A stretch of DNA of 53,216 nt, taken from NCBI GenBank assembly GCA_002435145.1, contig DJLT01000006.1:1-53216 (forward strand), read 5' to 3'. The notes beneath the pieces are model-generated. The model did not search any database. It had not been told where the DNA came from and was given only the letters and a program-made list of their open reading frames with translations. Of this stretch, positions 30,112 through 41,748 are shown piece after piece. Positions within the stretch are counted from its first letter, which is position 1. Each line of letters begins with the position of its first letter. Source of the DNA: Neptuniibacter sp. UBA6509. Lineage in GTDB: Bacteria > Pseudomonadota > Gammaproteobacteria > Pseudomonadales > Balneatricaceae. A program made the translations under genes and the position numbers.

Positions 30112-30149
30112 AAATAAGTACCGGTCATATTAGTGACCGGTACTTATTT
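30112..30149 (-). terminator. Perfect 16-bp hairpin at the end of the FNR/Anr gene
   Basis: AAATAAGTACCGGTCA and its exact complement are separated by six bases; the regulator's stop codon overlaps the first stem base. The tail on the minus strand is TTATTTGTTG, only weakly U-rich. Confidence 0.7.
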
Positions 30150-30943
30150 TAAGATTGAGTACCTTTACCGCATGCTGCGGTGGTAGTCTCTTGAACTTCA
30201 GGCTCCGGGCATTCACCTGAGAGTTGGTAAAGCTTATCGATATCTTGGATATGTACTTCTTTACCTTCAACTACGAGTAAATCAGCTTTTTGGAAGCGAG
30301 TGAAGATACGGCTAACGGTTTCTACCGCAAGGCCTAAGTAGTTACCTATTTCGTTTCGTGACATAGATAAGCGAAAGCTGGTCTCAGAATAGCCGCGTTC
30401 TTTGAAGCGATGGGATAGCTTAATAAGGAACGTTGCAACGCGCTCTTCTGCGTTTTTCTTTGAGAGTAACAGCATCATCTGCTGCTCTTCTCTGATCTCT
30501 TTACTCATTGTACGTAGCAGTTGGCGGCGCAGTTCTGGCAGTTGGCCAGATAGATCGTCTAAACGTTCAAAAGGGATCTCGCAAACGGTTGTCGTTTCAA
30601 GTACTTTAGCTGAAACTGGGTATTCGTTTGAGTCAAACCCACTCATCCCTACAAGCTCTCCAGGGAAATAAAACCCAGTGATCTGCTCTTCACCTTCATT
30701 GGTTATTGTGTAGGTTTTAATGGTGCCTGCACGAATAGCGTAGACATTGGTAAAGTTCGAGCCTTGATGAAAGAGATGCTCTCCCTTCTTTAAAGGCCGA
30801 CTTTTTTCAATGATATTATCGAGACGTTCCATCTCGGTCATATTAAGAGAAACGGGTAGGCAGAGTGTACTTAGGCTGCATGTATTGCAGCTTACCTGTT
30901 GTAAGCTGCGCAGTTTTCCTTCTGTCGCCTTGTTATTACCCAT
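30149..30943 (-). CDS. anr: FNR/Anr oxygen-sensing transcriptional regulator
   Basis: A 264-residue CRP/FNR regulator. The cluster cysteines are present: Cys19, Cys22 and Cys28 ([13 protein letters not shown]) and Cys121 (TTTVCEIPF), giving an oxygen-labile 4Fe-4S switch. The cNMP-like barrel is followed by a helix-turn-helix with [21 protein letters not shown], whose E..SR residues read TTGAT-N4-ATCAA sites. It lies 74 bp after hemN, and FNR-type boxes occur upstream of ccoN and ccoG in this window, so it very probably controls the neighbouring oxidase genes. FNR versus Anr naming depends on lineage. Confidence 0.95.
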
Positions 30944-36598: not shown

Positions 36599-36632
36599 AA
36601 TTAAGGTGGTGTATAAATAATCCTCCTTAATT
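36599..36632. repeat. Imperfect inverted repeat in the ccoG-ccoH gap
   Basis: AATTAAGGTGG and CCTCCTTAATT form an 11-bp stem with one mismatch around a 12-base loop. No U-tract. Together with the following terminator it fills most of the 132-bp gap. Confidence 0.55.
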
Positions 36633-36644
36633 GATTTTCATCAG
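36631..36644. promoter_or_regulatory. FNR/Anr-like box upstream of ccoH
   Basis: TTGAT-TTTC-ATCAG matches nine of ten conserved positions of TTGAT-N4-ATCAA. However, no -10 hexamer lies at the class II distance on the minus strand, and a terminator lies between the box and ccoH, so function is uncertain. Confidence 0.35.
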
Positions 36645-36647
36645 TGC

Positions 36648-38072
36648 CTAGCGTTTTGGCGAAGGCCCAATAAAGCGGTTCTCTTCTTTAATCGAGATAG
36701 AAGGGTTATCTAAAGCTTCTACTTCGAAGAGGATGGTATTGTTTGCACTGCTTAGGTATTTGGTTTTAATGCTAATGCGTATAGGCAGATCTAGGAGCTC
36801 ACCTGATTTAATTGTGACGATCTCTTTGCCTTTATAAACCATTCCATCAAGTCCAGATGCTTTAATGCTGAATTGATGATCTACCTGCTCTTTGTTGGCA
36901 ATCTTCAGTGTGTAAATATTTTCAATAGAGCCGTTGGATGTTTCAATATAAAGCTGTCCACGGTCACGAAGAATATCCACCTCAAGAGGAATTCGGCTAT
37001 ACAGTGTGTAGCCAAAGGCTATAAACATAGCGCACATGACTGCGAAGTAACCAATAAGGCGAGGGCGCACAATGTGTGTTTCGTGACCATCAAGTTGATG
37101 CTCAGTGGTATATCTTACAAGCCCTTTTTCATACCCAACACGCTCCATCATGTCATCACAAGCATCTACGCAAGCTCCGCAGGCTACACATTCGTATTGA
37201 AGTCCATCTCTTATATCAATGCCTACAGGGCATACATGTACACATGCATTACAGTCGATACAATCGCCTAAGCCTGCGGCCTTGTAATCAGAATTCTTTT
37301 TACGTTTACCTCTGCTTTCACCGCGTTTTTCATCGTATGAAATAATTAATGTGTCCTGGTCAAACATGACTGATTGAAAACGCGCGTAAGGACACATGTA
37401 AATGCAGACTTGTTCACGTAGCCAGCCTGCATTCCCGTAAGTTGCGACAGTAATAAAGCCAATCCACCACATCTCCCACGGACCGAGTTCGAAGCTGCCG
37501 ACAGCTGCAAGCAAATCCCTGATGGGTGTGAAATAACCAACAAATGCAATTGCCGATGCTGCAGAGAATACGACCCAGAGAAAATGTTTGGCACTTTTTC
37601 TTAGTATTTTTTCTTTGCTCATGCCCGCAGTTTTATCCATGCGCATGCGCTTATTGCGATCACCTTCAGTAACGCTTTCAATCCAAATGTAGATCCAGGT
37701 CCATACGAACTGAGGGCAGGCATACCCGCACCAGAGACGCCCGGCAAATACAGTAAAGAAAAAGAGTGCGAAAGCTAAAATAATGAGTAACCAAGATAGC
37801 AGCATGAAATCTTGTGGCCAAAAGGTCATGTTGAAAACATGAAACTGGCGATTAGGTAGGTCGAAAAGTACAGCCTGACGGCCATCCCAAGTAATCCAAG
37901 AGAAGCCAAAAAACATGACTAGCATGATAAAGCTGGATGCCTGGCGGAATTTTTTGAAAATCCCTGAATAGTTTTTAACGTAAATGTGTTCACGTTTAGC
38001 GTACAGGTCAAAGTTCTCCTCAGAATCTTTTTTCTTCTTTGGAGTGATGTCTTGAACTGGAATCTGACTCAT
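36648..38072 (-). CDS. ccoG: CcoG/RdxA cbb3 accessory ferredoxin-like membrane protein
   Basis: A protein of about 474 residues. It has several N-terminal membrane helices, a first cysteine-rich loop (GRLWCGYACPQFVWTW), two 4Fe-4S motif sets (CIDCNACVHVCPVGID and CVACGACVDACDDM), a further membrane helix and a C-terminal immunoglobulin-like periplasmic domain. CcoG reduces copper for cbb3 assembly. ATG 38072 (MSQIPVQD) is preferred since GTGAG lies upstream; a TTG at 38108 would add 12 residues. A promoter with an FNR-type box is predicted upstream. Confidence 0.94.
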   Translation of the reverse strand: MSQIPVQDITPKKKKDSEENFDLYAKREHIYVKNYSGIFKKFRQASSFIMLVMFFGFSWITWDGRQAVLFDLPNRQFHVFNMTFWPQDFMLLSWLLIILAFALFFFTVFAGRLWCGYACPQFVWTWIYIWIESVTEGDRNKRMRMDKTAGMSKEKILRKSAKHFLWVVFSAASAIAFVGYFTPIRDLLAAVGSFELGPWEMWWIGFITVATYGNAGWLREQVCIYMCPYARFQSVMFDQDTLIISYDEKRGESRGKRKKNSDYKAAGLGDCIDCNACVHVCPVGIDIRDGLQYECVACGACVDACDDMMERVGYEKGLVRYTTEHQLDGHETHIVRPRLIGYFAVMCAMFIAFGYTLYSRIPLEVDILRDRGQLYIETSNGSIENIYTLKIANKEQVDHQFSIKASGLDGMVYKGKEIVTIKSGELLDLPIRISIKTKYLSSANNTILFEVEALDNPSISIKEENRFIGPSPKR

Positions 38073-38108: not shown

Positions 38109-38154
38109 TCAACTTTGCTAATACTTAGAGAAAGTAGTGTATTAGCAAAGTTGA
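38109..38154 (-). repeat. Perfect 16-bp inverted repeat in the ccoG leader
   Basis: TCAACTTTGCTAATAC and its exact complement are separated by 14 bases. It begins about at the predicted RNA start (near 38150) of the ccoG promoter, so it is either a 5'-terminal mRNA hairpin or an operator over the start site. Confidence 0.8.
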
Positions 38155-38156
38155 AT

Positions 38157-38162
38157 ATTATA
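38157..38162 (-). promoter_or_regulatory. -10 element of ccoG promoter
   Basis: A perfect TATAAT on the minus strand, centred correctly for class II activation from the FNR-type box at 38185-38198. The -35 region shows no TTGACA, as expected of an activator-dependent promoter. Confidence 0.65.
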
Positions 38163-38171
38163 GAGTTCTAC

Positions 38172-38208
38172 AAAAAAAGGCGACATGATCTACATCATAT
38201 CGCCTTTT
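38172..38208 (-). terminator. Intrinsic terminator of ccoNOQP
   Basis: Minus-strand RNA: AAAAGGCGA-U-AUGAU, tetraloop GUAG, AUCAU-G-UCGCCUUUU, a 15-bp stem with one U-G wobble, followed by seven U in all. It starts 18 bases after the ccoP stop. Its upper stem and loop also form an FNR-like site. Confidence 0.9.
38185..38198 (-). promoter_or_regulatory. FNR/Anr box for ccoG, inside the ccoP terminator
   Basis: ATGAT-GTAG-ATCAT on the minus strand keeps the full TGAT-N4-ATCA core. Its centre (38191.5) is 29.5 bp from the first base of the TATAAT at 38162, which puts the box at -41.5, the class II FNR position. Confidence 0.65.
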
Positions 38209-38225: not shown

Positions 38226-39119
38226 TTATTTATTAGACAGGCTGTATACGTAAGCTGTGATTAAGTGAATCTTATCATCGCTTAGTAGGTCTTTGTGAGC
38301 AGGCATAACACCTTGTCGACCGCTACGGATAGAGTGAGCTACCTTGTCAAAAGAGCCACCGTATAGCCATATGTCGTCAGTCAGGTTAGGTGCACCTAAG
38401 ATAGGTAGACCTTTAGCGTCAGCGCCGTGACAAGCAGTACATAGTGCTTGGAACTGGCCTTTACCGCGTTCAGCGCGTTCAGCATCTGCTTCAGCACCGC
38501 TGAGTGAAAGGACATAGTTCGCTACGTCAGCAACACCTTCTTCACCTAGAACTGCACCCCATGGTGGCATACCGCCACTACGACCATTTGTGATAGAAGC
38601 TTTGATTGTTTTAGCGTCACCGCCATACAACCAATCATTATCAGTTAGGTTAGGGAAACCATATGCGCCCGTTGCAGCTGAGCCGTGGCACAGAGAGCAG
38701 TTGTTGGCGAACATGCGCTGGCCCATTTTTAGGCCACCTTCATTTTCAGGCTTTAGAAGTTCTTCAGCAGGCAGGGCAGCGTATTTAGCGAATACAGGCT
38801 TATACACTTCGTCTGCATGACGGATTTCTTCTTCCCATTGGTTATGAGATGTCCATCCAAGTACGCCTTGGAAATTACCTAAACCAGGGTAAAGAACAAG
38901 ATAACCTAGGCCAAAAATAACAGTTCCAATAAACATCTGGAACCACCATTTTGGAAGTGGATTATCATACTCGGCGATGCCATCAAATTCATGGCCTAGA
39001 GTTTCTTCAGTTGTTTCCTGGTGTGGCTGGCTTTTACGTGTAGCAAGTAGTAGCCAAGTACAACCAAGGATTACAGCTAGGGTAATTACTGTTACCCATG
39101 CGCTCCAGAAAGCACTCAT
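38226..39119 (-). CDS. ccoP: cbb3 oxidase di-haem subunit III
   Basis: A 297-residue membrane-anchored cytochrome c: two helices (about 7-27 and 59-78), the acidic linker EFDGIAEYDNPLPKWW typical of CcoP, and two haem c sites CSLCH (141-145) and CTACH (227-231), each with a methionine ligand region (GMPPWG, VMPAH). It passes electrons to the CcoO/CcoN subunits. Its start overlaps the ccoQ stop by four bases. Confidence 0.97.
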   Translation of the reverse strand: MSAFWSAWVTVITLAVILGCTWLLLATRKSQPHQETTEETLGHEFDGIAEYDNPLPKWWFQMFIGTVIFGLGYLVLYPGLGNFQGVLGWTSHNQWEEEIRHADEVYKPVFAKYAALPAEELLKPENEGGLKMGQRMFANNCSLCHGSAATGAYGFPNLTDNDWLYGGDAKTIKASITNGRSGGMPPWGAVLGEEGVADVANYVLSLSGAEADAERAERGKGQFQALCTACHGADAKGLPILGAPNLTDDIWLYGGSFDKVAHSIRSGRQGVMPAHKDLLSDDKIHLITAYVYSLSNK

Positions 39120-41379: not shown

Positions 41380-41748
41380 GTCAGGCTCTCATCAACAAGC
41401 TAGTTATAGAAATTTGAGTTTCGCAGCCAATTATCTTGGAATAAGGCCGTATTATCAATGTATTTAGGTGAATTAGTGGGGCATTTTGTCGCAGGTGCGC
41501 AATAGAGACCTAGGTATCGTATCGATACTCCCTATGGATAGTATGTGTTTTTATCTTATTGAAAAGTAAGGATATTTTTTTTGTGTCTTGAGAAATGTTC
41601 TAAATAATCTGCAGCTTTTACTGTTTTTGTGTGACCTAAGTCTAGGTTTTTCCCCTTATTACAAACCGCTTTTCGGATGTTTATTTGACATAAATCAATT
41701 GGATTTTATGGGACAATTGCTTTTTTTAAGCTCTAGAAGGTTTATTTC
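41380..41748. other. Divergent intergenic region carrying the ccoN leader and promoter
   Basis: Holds the FNR box (41685-41698), a likely -10 and a predicted ccoN leader of about 270 bases. TATCGTATCGATACTCCC (around 41515) is a small palindrome-like element in the leader. No small gene with a ribosome site was found. Confidence 0.5.
41658..41698 (-). promoter_or_regulatory. FNR/Anr-dependent promoter of ccoNOQP
   Basis: On the minus strand TTGAT-TTAT-GTCAA (41698-41685) matches nine of ten FNR positions; TGTAAT (41663-41658) follows 28.5 bp from its centre, close to the class II geometry. Read toward the plus-strand hydrolase gene, no -10 is found at the right distance. Confidence 0.72.

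Follow-up and report, generated by a model that had tools for sequence, protein, structure and literature searches.

The window, a stretch of 53,216 nt, carries a cbb3 oxidase gene cluster on the minus strand in which ccoP, encoding subunit III of the oxidase (38226..39119; TIGR00782, 289.3 bits), is the last gene before a predicted terminator and is followed by ccoG, encoding the accessory protein CcoG (36648..38069; TIGR02745, 544.6 bits), which is 77–90% identical to CcoG from loci named Neptuniibacter. An fnr/anr gene lies on the same strand (30149..30943; NF008365 Fnr, 333.9 bits against a cut-off of 228), and its product has an N-terminal Cx2Cx5C motif, FNR 5cvr as its best PDB relative, and a recognition helix that aligns with LTVETISRLL of that solved structure. 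Upstream of ccoN is a canonical Anr box, TTGAT-TTAT-GTCAA (41685..41698, minus strand; 9/10), which served as the positive control; all 18 ccoN boxes, that of the window and those of the 17/17 gammaproteobacterial loci holding the region, score 9–10/10 and have the outer bases T and A. The box of the window (region 41380–41698) lies ~312 nt before the ccoN start codon. A conserved −10 is not apparent at class II spacing from it, and ccoN may therefore carry a long leader or start elsewhere.

In the gap between ccoP and ccoG, a terminator-like hairpin and an operator-like palindrome occupy the same bases. The predicted intrinsic terminator of ccoNOQP (38175..38208, minus strand), assigned from the sequence, its fold and the stem pairing in relatives, reads AAAA (38208–38205), GGCGATATGAT (38204–38194), a GTAG loop (38193–38190) and ATCATGTCGCC (38189–38179), and is followed by a tract of seven T (38178–38172) and then by TATAAT, the complete minus-strand order being AAAA-GGCGATATGAT-GTAG-ATCATGTCGCC-TTTTTTT-GTAGAACTC-TATAAT. 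The 11-bp stem has a computed folding energy of −20.9 kcal/mol, and with its GC-rich base and the U-tract the element has the make-up expected of an intrinsic terminator. The top of this hairpin is the FNR/Anr-like palindrome ATGAT-GTAG-ATCAT (38185..38198, minus strand; core TGA-N6-TCA), the centre of which, at 38191.5, is 29.5 bp from the first T of TATAAT (38162). If this hexamer (38157..38162, minus strand) is the −10 of a ccoG promoter and spans −12 to −7, transcription is predicted to start at 38150, which puts the palindrome centre at −41.5. The first-pass annotation had described this geometry, a palindrome within the hairpin, 29.5 bp from TATAAT and thus at −41.5, and it proved exact to the base. 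Neither the promoter nor the terminator appears in the consensus-scanner output for the window, the promoter because no −35 hexamer reaches 4/6 matches and the terminator probably because its stem runs into the T-tract. Compared with the FNR consensus TTGAT-N4-ATCAA, the palindrome matches at 8/10 positions, both mismatches being the outer bases; since the window holds 78 sites with at most two mismatches against 46 expected, such a match means little by itself.

Further features surround ccoG. At the 5' end predicted for the ccoG transcript is a leader hairpin, a 15-bp inverted repeat (38110..38153, minus strand); it is strong in the genus of the window, with a mean z of −3.82 relative to mononucleotide shuffles, and weaker elsewhere. 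Many relatives, including some in which the promoter has moved, retain a leader motif, TATAATATTC-N7-CTAATR; TATAATATTC-N7-CTAAT was rejected as the mark of a genome-wide regulon, since of 11 genomes 10 have it at ccoG, with 0–2 further places per genome. Directly after the ccoG stop codon is an FNR-like box, CTGATGAAAATCAA (36631–36644, minus strand; 9/10), and between this box and ccoH another terminator-like hairpin was seen by eye. We considered this ccoG-end box (CTGAT-GAAA-ATCAA) as a second example of the same arrangement and discarded it: it is conserved in part of the window genus alone (9/10 in five and 8/10 in four of its ten loci), is absent from that place in the rest of the 37 loci scanned, and has no −10 at 22 nt.

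The comparison drew on CcoG searches of 57 relatives and 116 genomes of the family and on 80 further stretches, yielding 109 parsed ccoP–ccoG gaps, of which 99 (97 distinct) come from the family; L161, in which no ccoP was found, and G072, with a partial CcoG, were left out. Hairpins alignable in an 11+4+11 format are present in 78/99 family loci, and the other 21 comprise all loci of genera g2 (8), g12 (7) and g15 (1) together with L014, L016, L095, L100 and L103. Judging, for example, from gap sequences common to named loci, g13 probably corresponds to Neptunomonas, g7 to Marinobacterium and part of g16 to Aliamphritea. Seven genera (g1, g3, g4, g7, g8, g9 and g11) make up a set of 51 loci, the window included. 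A −10-like hexamer was defined as a match of at least 4/6 with A at position 2 and T at position 6.

Throughout the seven genera, TGA-N6-TCA is found in the hairpin (51/51 loci), and the core is present in 72/78 aligned hairpins overall. Downstream of the operator, a −10-like hexamer lies at 21–23 nt, equivalent to −40.5 to −42.5 from the predicted start, in 50/51 loci, compared with 0–28 of 51 for eleven other three-nucleotide offset windows; in L137, the one exception, position 2 of the hexamer at 21 nt (TGTACT) is not A, and TATACT follows further downstream. Among offsets 14–33, TAnnnT occurs most commonly at exactly 22 nt (38/51) and next at 25 nt (23/51), the latter peak arising because many species have the overlapping TAnTATAAT; in these loci, the hexamer at 25 nt (−44.5) is closer to TATAAT than the one at 22 nt. 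Both spacings fit the range in E. coli, where 19 of 23 FNR-activated promoters with a known start have a site at −41.5 ± 4, as given in the available text of PMC3688515. None of the 51 loci has a −35 with at least 4/6 matches, the best match being 2 or 3 of 6 (mean 2.75 vs 2.48 in shuffled sequences). In combining a good −10 with a weak or absent −35, the predicted ccoG promoters resemble class II FNR-activated promoters.

How far the fused form extends was gauged by pattern searches. A strict combination of TGATNNNNATCA, T-tract and TATAAT matched 1/369 sampled gammaproteobacterial genomes, namely the window's own; given that the sample contains no other family member and that the strict form would miss most relatives, this count shows the fused form to be rare outside the family, which is less than proof of absence. 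Within the family, ATGAT-N4-ATCAT followed by T6 matched in 42/116 genomes, mostly at the ccoP–ccoG locus, the off-locus exceptions being in G063, G099, G100 (19 places), G102, G106, G107, G108, G112 and G115. In G100, the ATGATCGCCATCATTTGCTCG stretch recurs at many contig ends, which suggests a repeated element. We also tried TTGAT-N4-ATCAA followed by T6 as an indicator of the arrangement in other terminators of the family and rejected it: scored without a hairpin criterion, it matched in 20/116 genomes, none of them the window's, and five matches (G016, G068, G074, G075, G104) lie ~3.6 kb upstream of ccoG, in the place of the ccoN box, with the rest scattered.

The bases of the hairpin change at unequal rates. 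Parsimony changes were counted over 76 hairpins, that is, the 78 minus the bulged g4 hairpins of L140 and L141, both of which the 78-hairpin count forced into register. Within the core, G9/C9' changed 0/0 times, T8/A8' 2/1 and A10/T10' 3/3, and the outer operator bases A7/T7' changed 3/2 times; the GGCG stem base is similarly slow (0–2 changes), whereas the loop has 9–22 changes, the top pair T11/A11' 9/12, and the mid-stem positions A5, T6, A6' and T5' 7, 4, 7 and 2, respectively. The slow bases thus form two blocks, one being the GGCG terminator base and the other the TGA/TCA core with its outer A/T, with faster positions between them, a picture that the slow T5' (2 changes) fits less well and that the count over all 78 hairpins repeats. 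Stem pairs are mostly kept, including through two-sided changes (C-G to T-A and G-C to A-T at the base, T-A to C-G in mid-stem), so that, as far as the alignments tell, the RNA hairpin is also under selection. Between genera, hairpin-arm identity is 0.93 at ccoP against 0.51 for a control terminator at a proQ-like gene (random 0.39), and within a genus 1.00 against 0.74, in the 19 genomes that have both; the control comprises 20 hand-picked arms, some of them shortened, from 30 loci delivered by an automatic finder, and any arms among them that are not terminators would depress the control identity. A second control terminator, at a rhodanese-domain gene, looks like the proQ control, judged from the listing alone. 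The conservation of the arrangement in many marine relatives across the family, together with these controls, led us to reject chance as its explanation.

Several lineages separate the two features. In g4, the palindrome reads CTGAT-N4-ATCAA in 5/5 loci, 9/10 to the FNR consensus, at the cost of a stem pair (a C-A mismatch in L024, L026 and L130, a bulge in L140 and L141), with TATAAT or TATACT exactly 22 nt from the operator in 5/5. In two g11 loci, L127 and L128, a complete terminator stands apart upstream (−18.8 and −20.2 kcal/mol), and TATGAC-TTAC-GTCATA is nonetheless retained 22 nt from TATTAT, with an equally good hexamer at 17 nt; from ccoP to ccoG, these loci show two successive terminator-like hairpins, and of the second the operator palindrome is all that is left. 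Just upstream of the hairpin, and abutting or at most 3 nt from the ccoP stop codon, g13 has TTGAC-N4-ATCAA in 8/8 loci, an Anr-type box centred at −68.5 to −71.5 relative to the main −10; the available text of PMC6343905 gives −61.5 and −71.5 as positions of class I FNR sites. The g13 hairpin itself has ATGAA/TTCAT or GTGAA/TTCAT at −42.5 to −44.5 in five loci; in the other three (L016, L021, L099) the core is gone. In g16, the core is lost in three loci (L094, L096, L098), and in the 12/15 loci that keep it the −10 has moved 23–25 bp further, leaving the palindrome at −64.5 to −66.5, which shows that the core can persist without the spacing; g5 is mixed. The box of L095, TTGAC-N4-ATCAG, keeps the core.

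The first-pass annotation had proposed aligning the ccoP–ccoG gap across related genera to see whether the core is kept, and had named its loss in close relatives that retain the terminator as evidence against a dual role. The alignment bore out the expected constancy in the seven genera, and losses of the kind it named do occur, in 6/78 aligned hairpins and in three unaligned ones (L016, L100, L103). All nine losses are confined to three genera, two with a displaced −10 (g5, g16) and one that has a separate Anr box (g13). Core kept versus lost is 51/0 in the seven genera and 22/10 in g5, g6, g13 and g16 (p = 2.7e-5), a comparison for which the grouping was made post hoc, the counts were compiled by hand, and the relatives are not independent.

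As to the identity of the cognate regulator, FNR and CRP sites differ at the outer base. At the ccoG site, the outer bases are A and T, rather than the T and A of FNR, in the window and in 44/50 distinct hairpins, and we accordingly call the window site FNR-like rather than a consensus Anr box. The site could be a real operator that belongs to CRP/Vfr or another member of the CRP family instead of Anr, which we regard as unlikely: TATGA-N6-TCATA is one base per half away from the CRP site TGTGA-N6-TCACA, CRP class II sites are also centred at −41.5, the genome contains a second over-cut-off match to a CRP-family HTH model, and relatives score 6–9/10 for CRP, many at 8/10, and at many loci as high as for FNR or higher (8 vs 7 in some), with L114 and L116 at 9/10, whereas the window site scores 8/10 for FNR and 7/10 for CRP, the g4 sites score 9/10 against 6/10, g13 has 9/10 FNR boxes in the ccoP–ccoG gap, and both the role of ccoG and the nearby fnr gene point to Anr. 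The boxes of g4 and g13 speak for FNR. A G at position 6 (27/78 hairpins), giving GTCA, was dismissed as an argument against FNR, as ccoN boxes of the same genus can also have GTCAA. Anr is the likely regulator of the ccoG site, because an fnr gene lies in the window, ccoN has canonical Anr boxes, and two other genera have FNR-like boxes in the ccoP–ccoG gap; it is not proven, because the outer bases are A/T in most species. Binding of an FNR-type protein to the window site is plausible, albeit probably weaker, in view of the base tolerances of FnrL from R. capsulatus: in the available text of PMC4634722, its ChIP motif is (T/C/A)TGA-N6-TCAA with invariant TG and CA, position 1 is T in 37%, C in 34% and A in 24%, position 14 is A in 90%, and the comparison table includes ATGATCCAAGTCAT, in which both outer bases are changed.

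Selection for a good terminator alone, with the FNR-like core and the TATAAT spacing as by-products of shared ancestry, also appears improbable to us. The terminator features are intact, the hairpin outlasts the core in the nine loci listed above, and 12 g16 loci have the core without the spacing, all of which agree with such a requirement; it does not account for the proQ control, which diverges fast in the same genomes (the second control being alike by listing alone), for the presence of two slow blocks instead of one, for the narrow range of distances to the −10, or for the palindrome that L127 and L128 keep beside a separate terminator. Conservation of the hairpin as an RNA feature, such as the 3' end of a small RNA from the ccoP 3' UTR, rather than as an operator would agree with the strong hairpin, the U-tract and conservation at the level of sequence, and we give it very little credence, since it leaves unexplained the −10 distance, the g4 mismatch favouring ATCAA, and the L127/L128 palindrome.

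The best explanation, to which we assign a probability of about two in three, is a dual-function element, an FNR/Anr-like class II operator fused into the intrinsic terminator of ccoNOQP. It is built on what the DNA displays, namely, the geometry, its conservation, the two slow blocks, and the natural separation of the two features in some lineages. The upper stem and loop of the terminator would serve at the same time as the class II operator of an FNR/Anr-type dimer: at low oxygen, Anr, whose gene lies 7 kb off in this cluster, would bind the double-stranded palindrome at −41.5, touch sigma-70 and alpha, and recruit RNA polymerase to a promoter with a good −10 and no −35, so that ccoG would be made when the oxidase is made. 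As RNA, the same bases would form the hairpin that ends the ccoP transcript. We infer that the protein is Anr, that it activates the promoter, and that the cell uses both functions. The dual role suggested in the first-pass annotation is supported by the comparison insofar as a CRP/FNR-type core lies in the terminator at the class II distance and is conserved beyond the control; its assignment to Anr is likely yet unproven, and some relatives have lost the core. That the fusion is itself regulatory, with Anr on the terminator DNA at low oxygen changing termination and thereby coupling the oxidase subunits and the assembly factor via one 50-bp element, is a doubtful extension of an idea raised in the first-pass annotation, that bound Anr could affect termination or readthrough; Anr might then act as a roadblock that helps release, or the terminated polymerase might be passed to the adjoining ccoG promoter.

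If the dual-function reading is right, one short sequence is seemingly subject to two selections, as RNA and as DNA, in a clean natural case, and the lineages that separate the functions, through the second terminators of two g11 loci, the upstream Anr-type box of g13 and the operator-suiting mismatch of g4, make the trade-off testable. It would also predict that these bacteria can turn on ccoG through Anr separately from ccoNOQP. A promoter scanner can overlook an operator that lies within a terminator, and among the matches listed in a search of the open-access literature none described an FNR site in such a place.

The closest known systems include the class II FNR promoters of E. coli, such as dmsA, narG and nirB, which have FNR sites at −41.5 in the available text of PMC3688515; the window shares the FNR-type palindrome at this position and differs in that its operator forms part of the upstream operon's intrinsic terminator and has outer A/T instead of T/A. 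The ccoN Anr box of the same cluster has the same presumed regulator and N6 core, with T/A as outer bases; the available text of PMC6588701 lists ccoN with Anr boxes and does not name PA1551. FnrL sites of R. capsulatus share the TGA-N6-TCA-type motif, and according to the authors of PMC4634722, in the main text of which, so far as available, the word terminator is absent, a site inside ccoN may serve repression of ccoGHIS. Our scan found an FNR box of at least 8/10 ~29–48 nt before the projected ccoG start in 12/14 alphaproteobacterial loci (all except L058 and L070; four more had no usable gap) and in none of six other non-gammaproteobacterial loci. These boxes of the Rhodobacterales type are free-standing, with no terminator seen as far as examined, and are too near the start codon for activation to be assumed. 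Oxygen control of ccoG would therefore not be new, and it is the merger of the operator with a terminator that sets the arrangement in the window apart.
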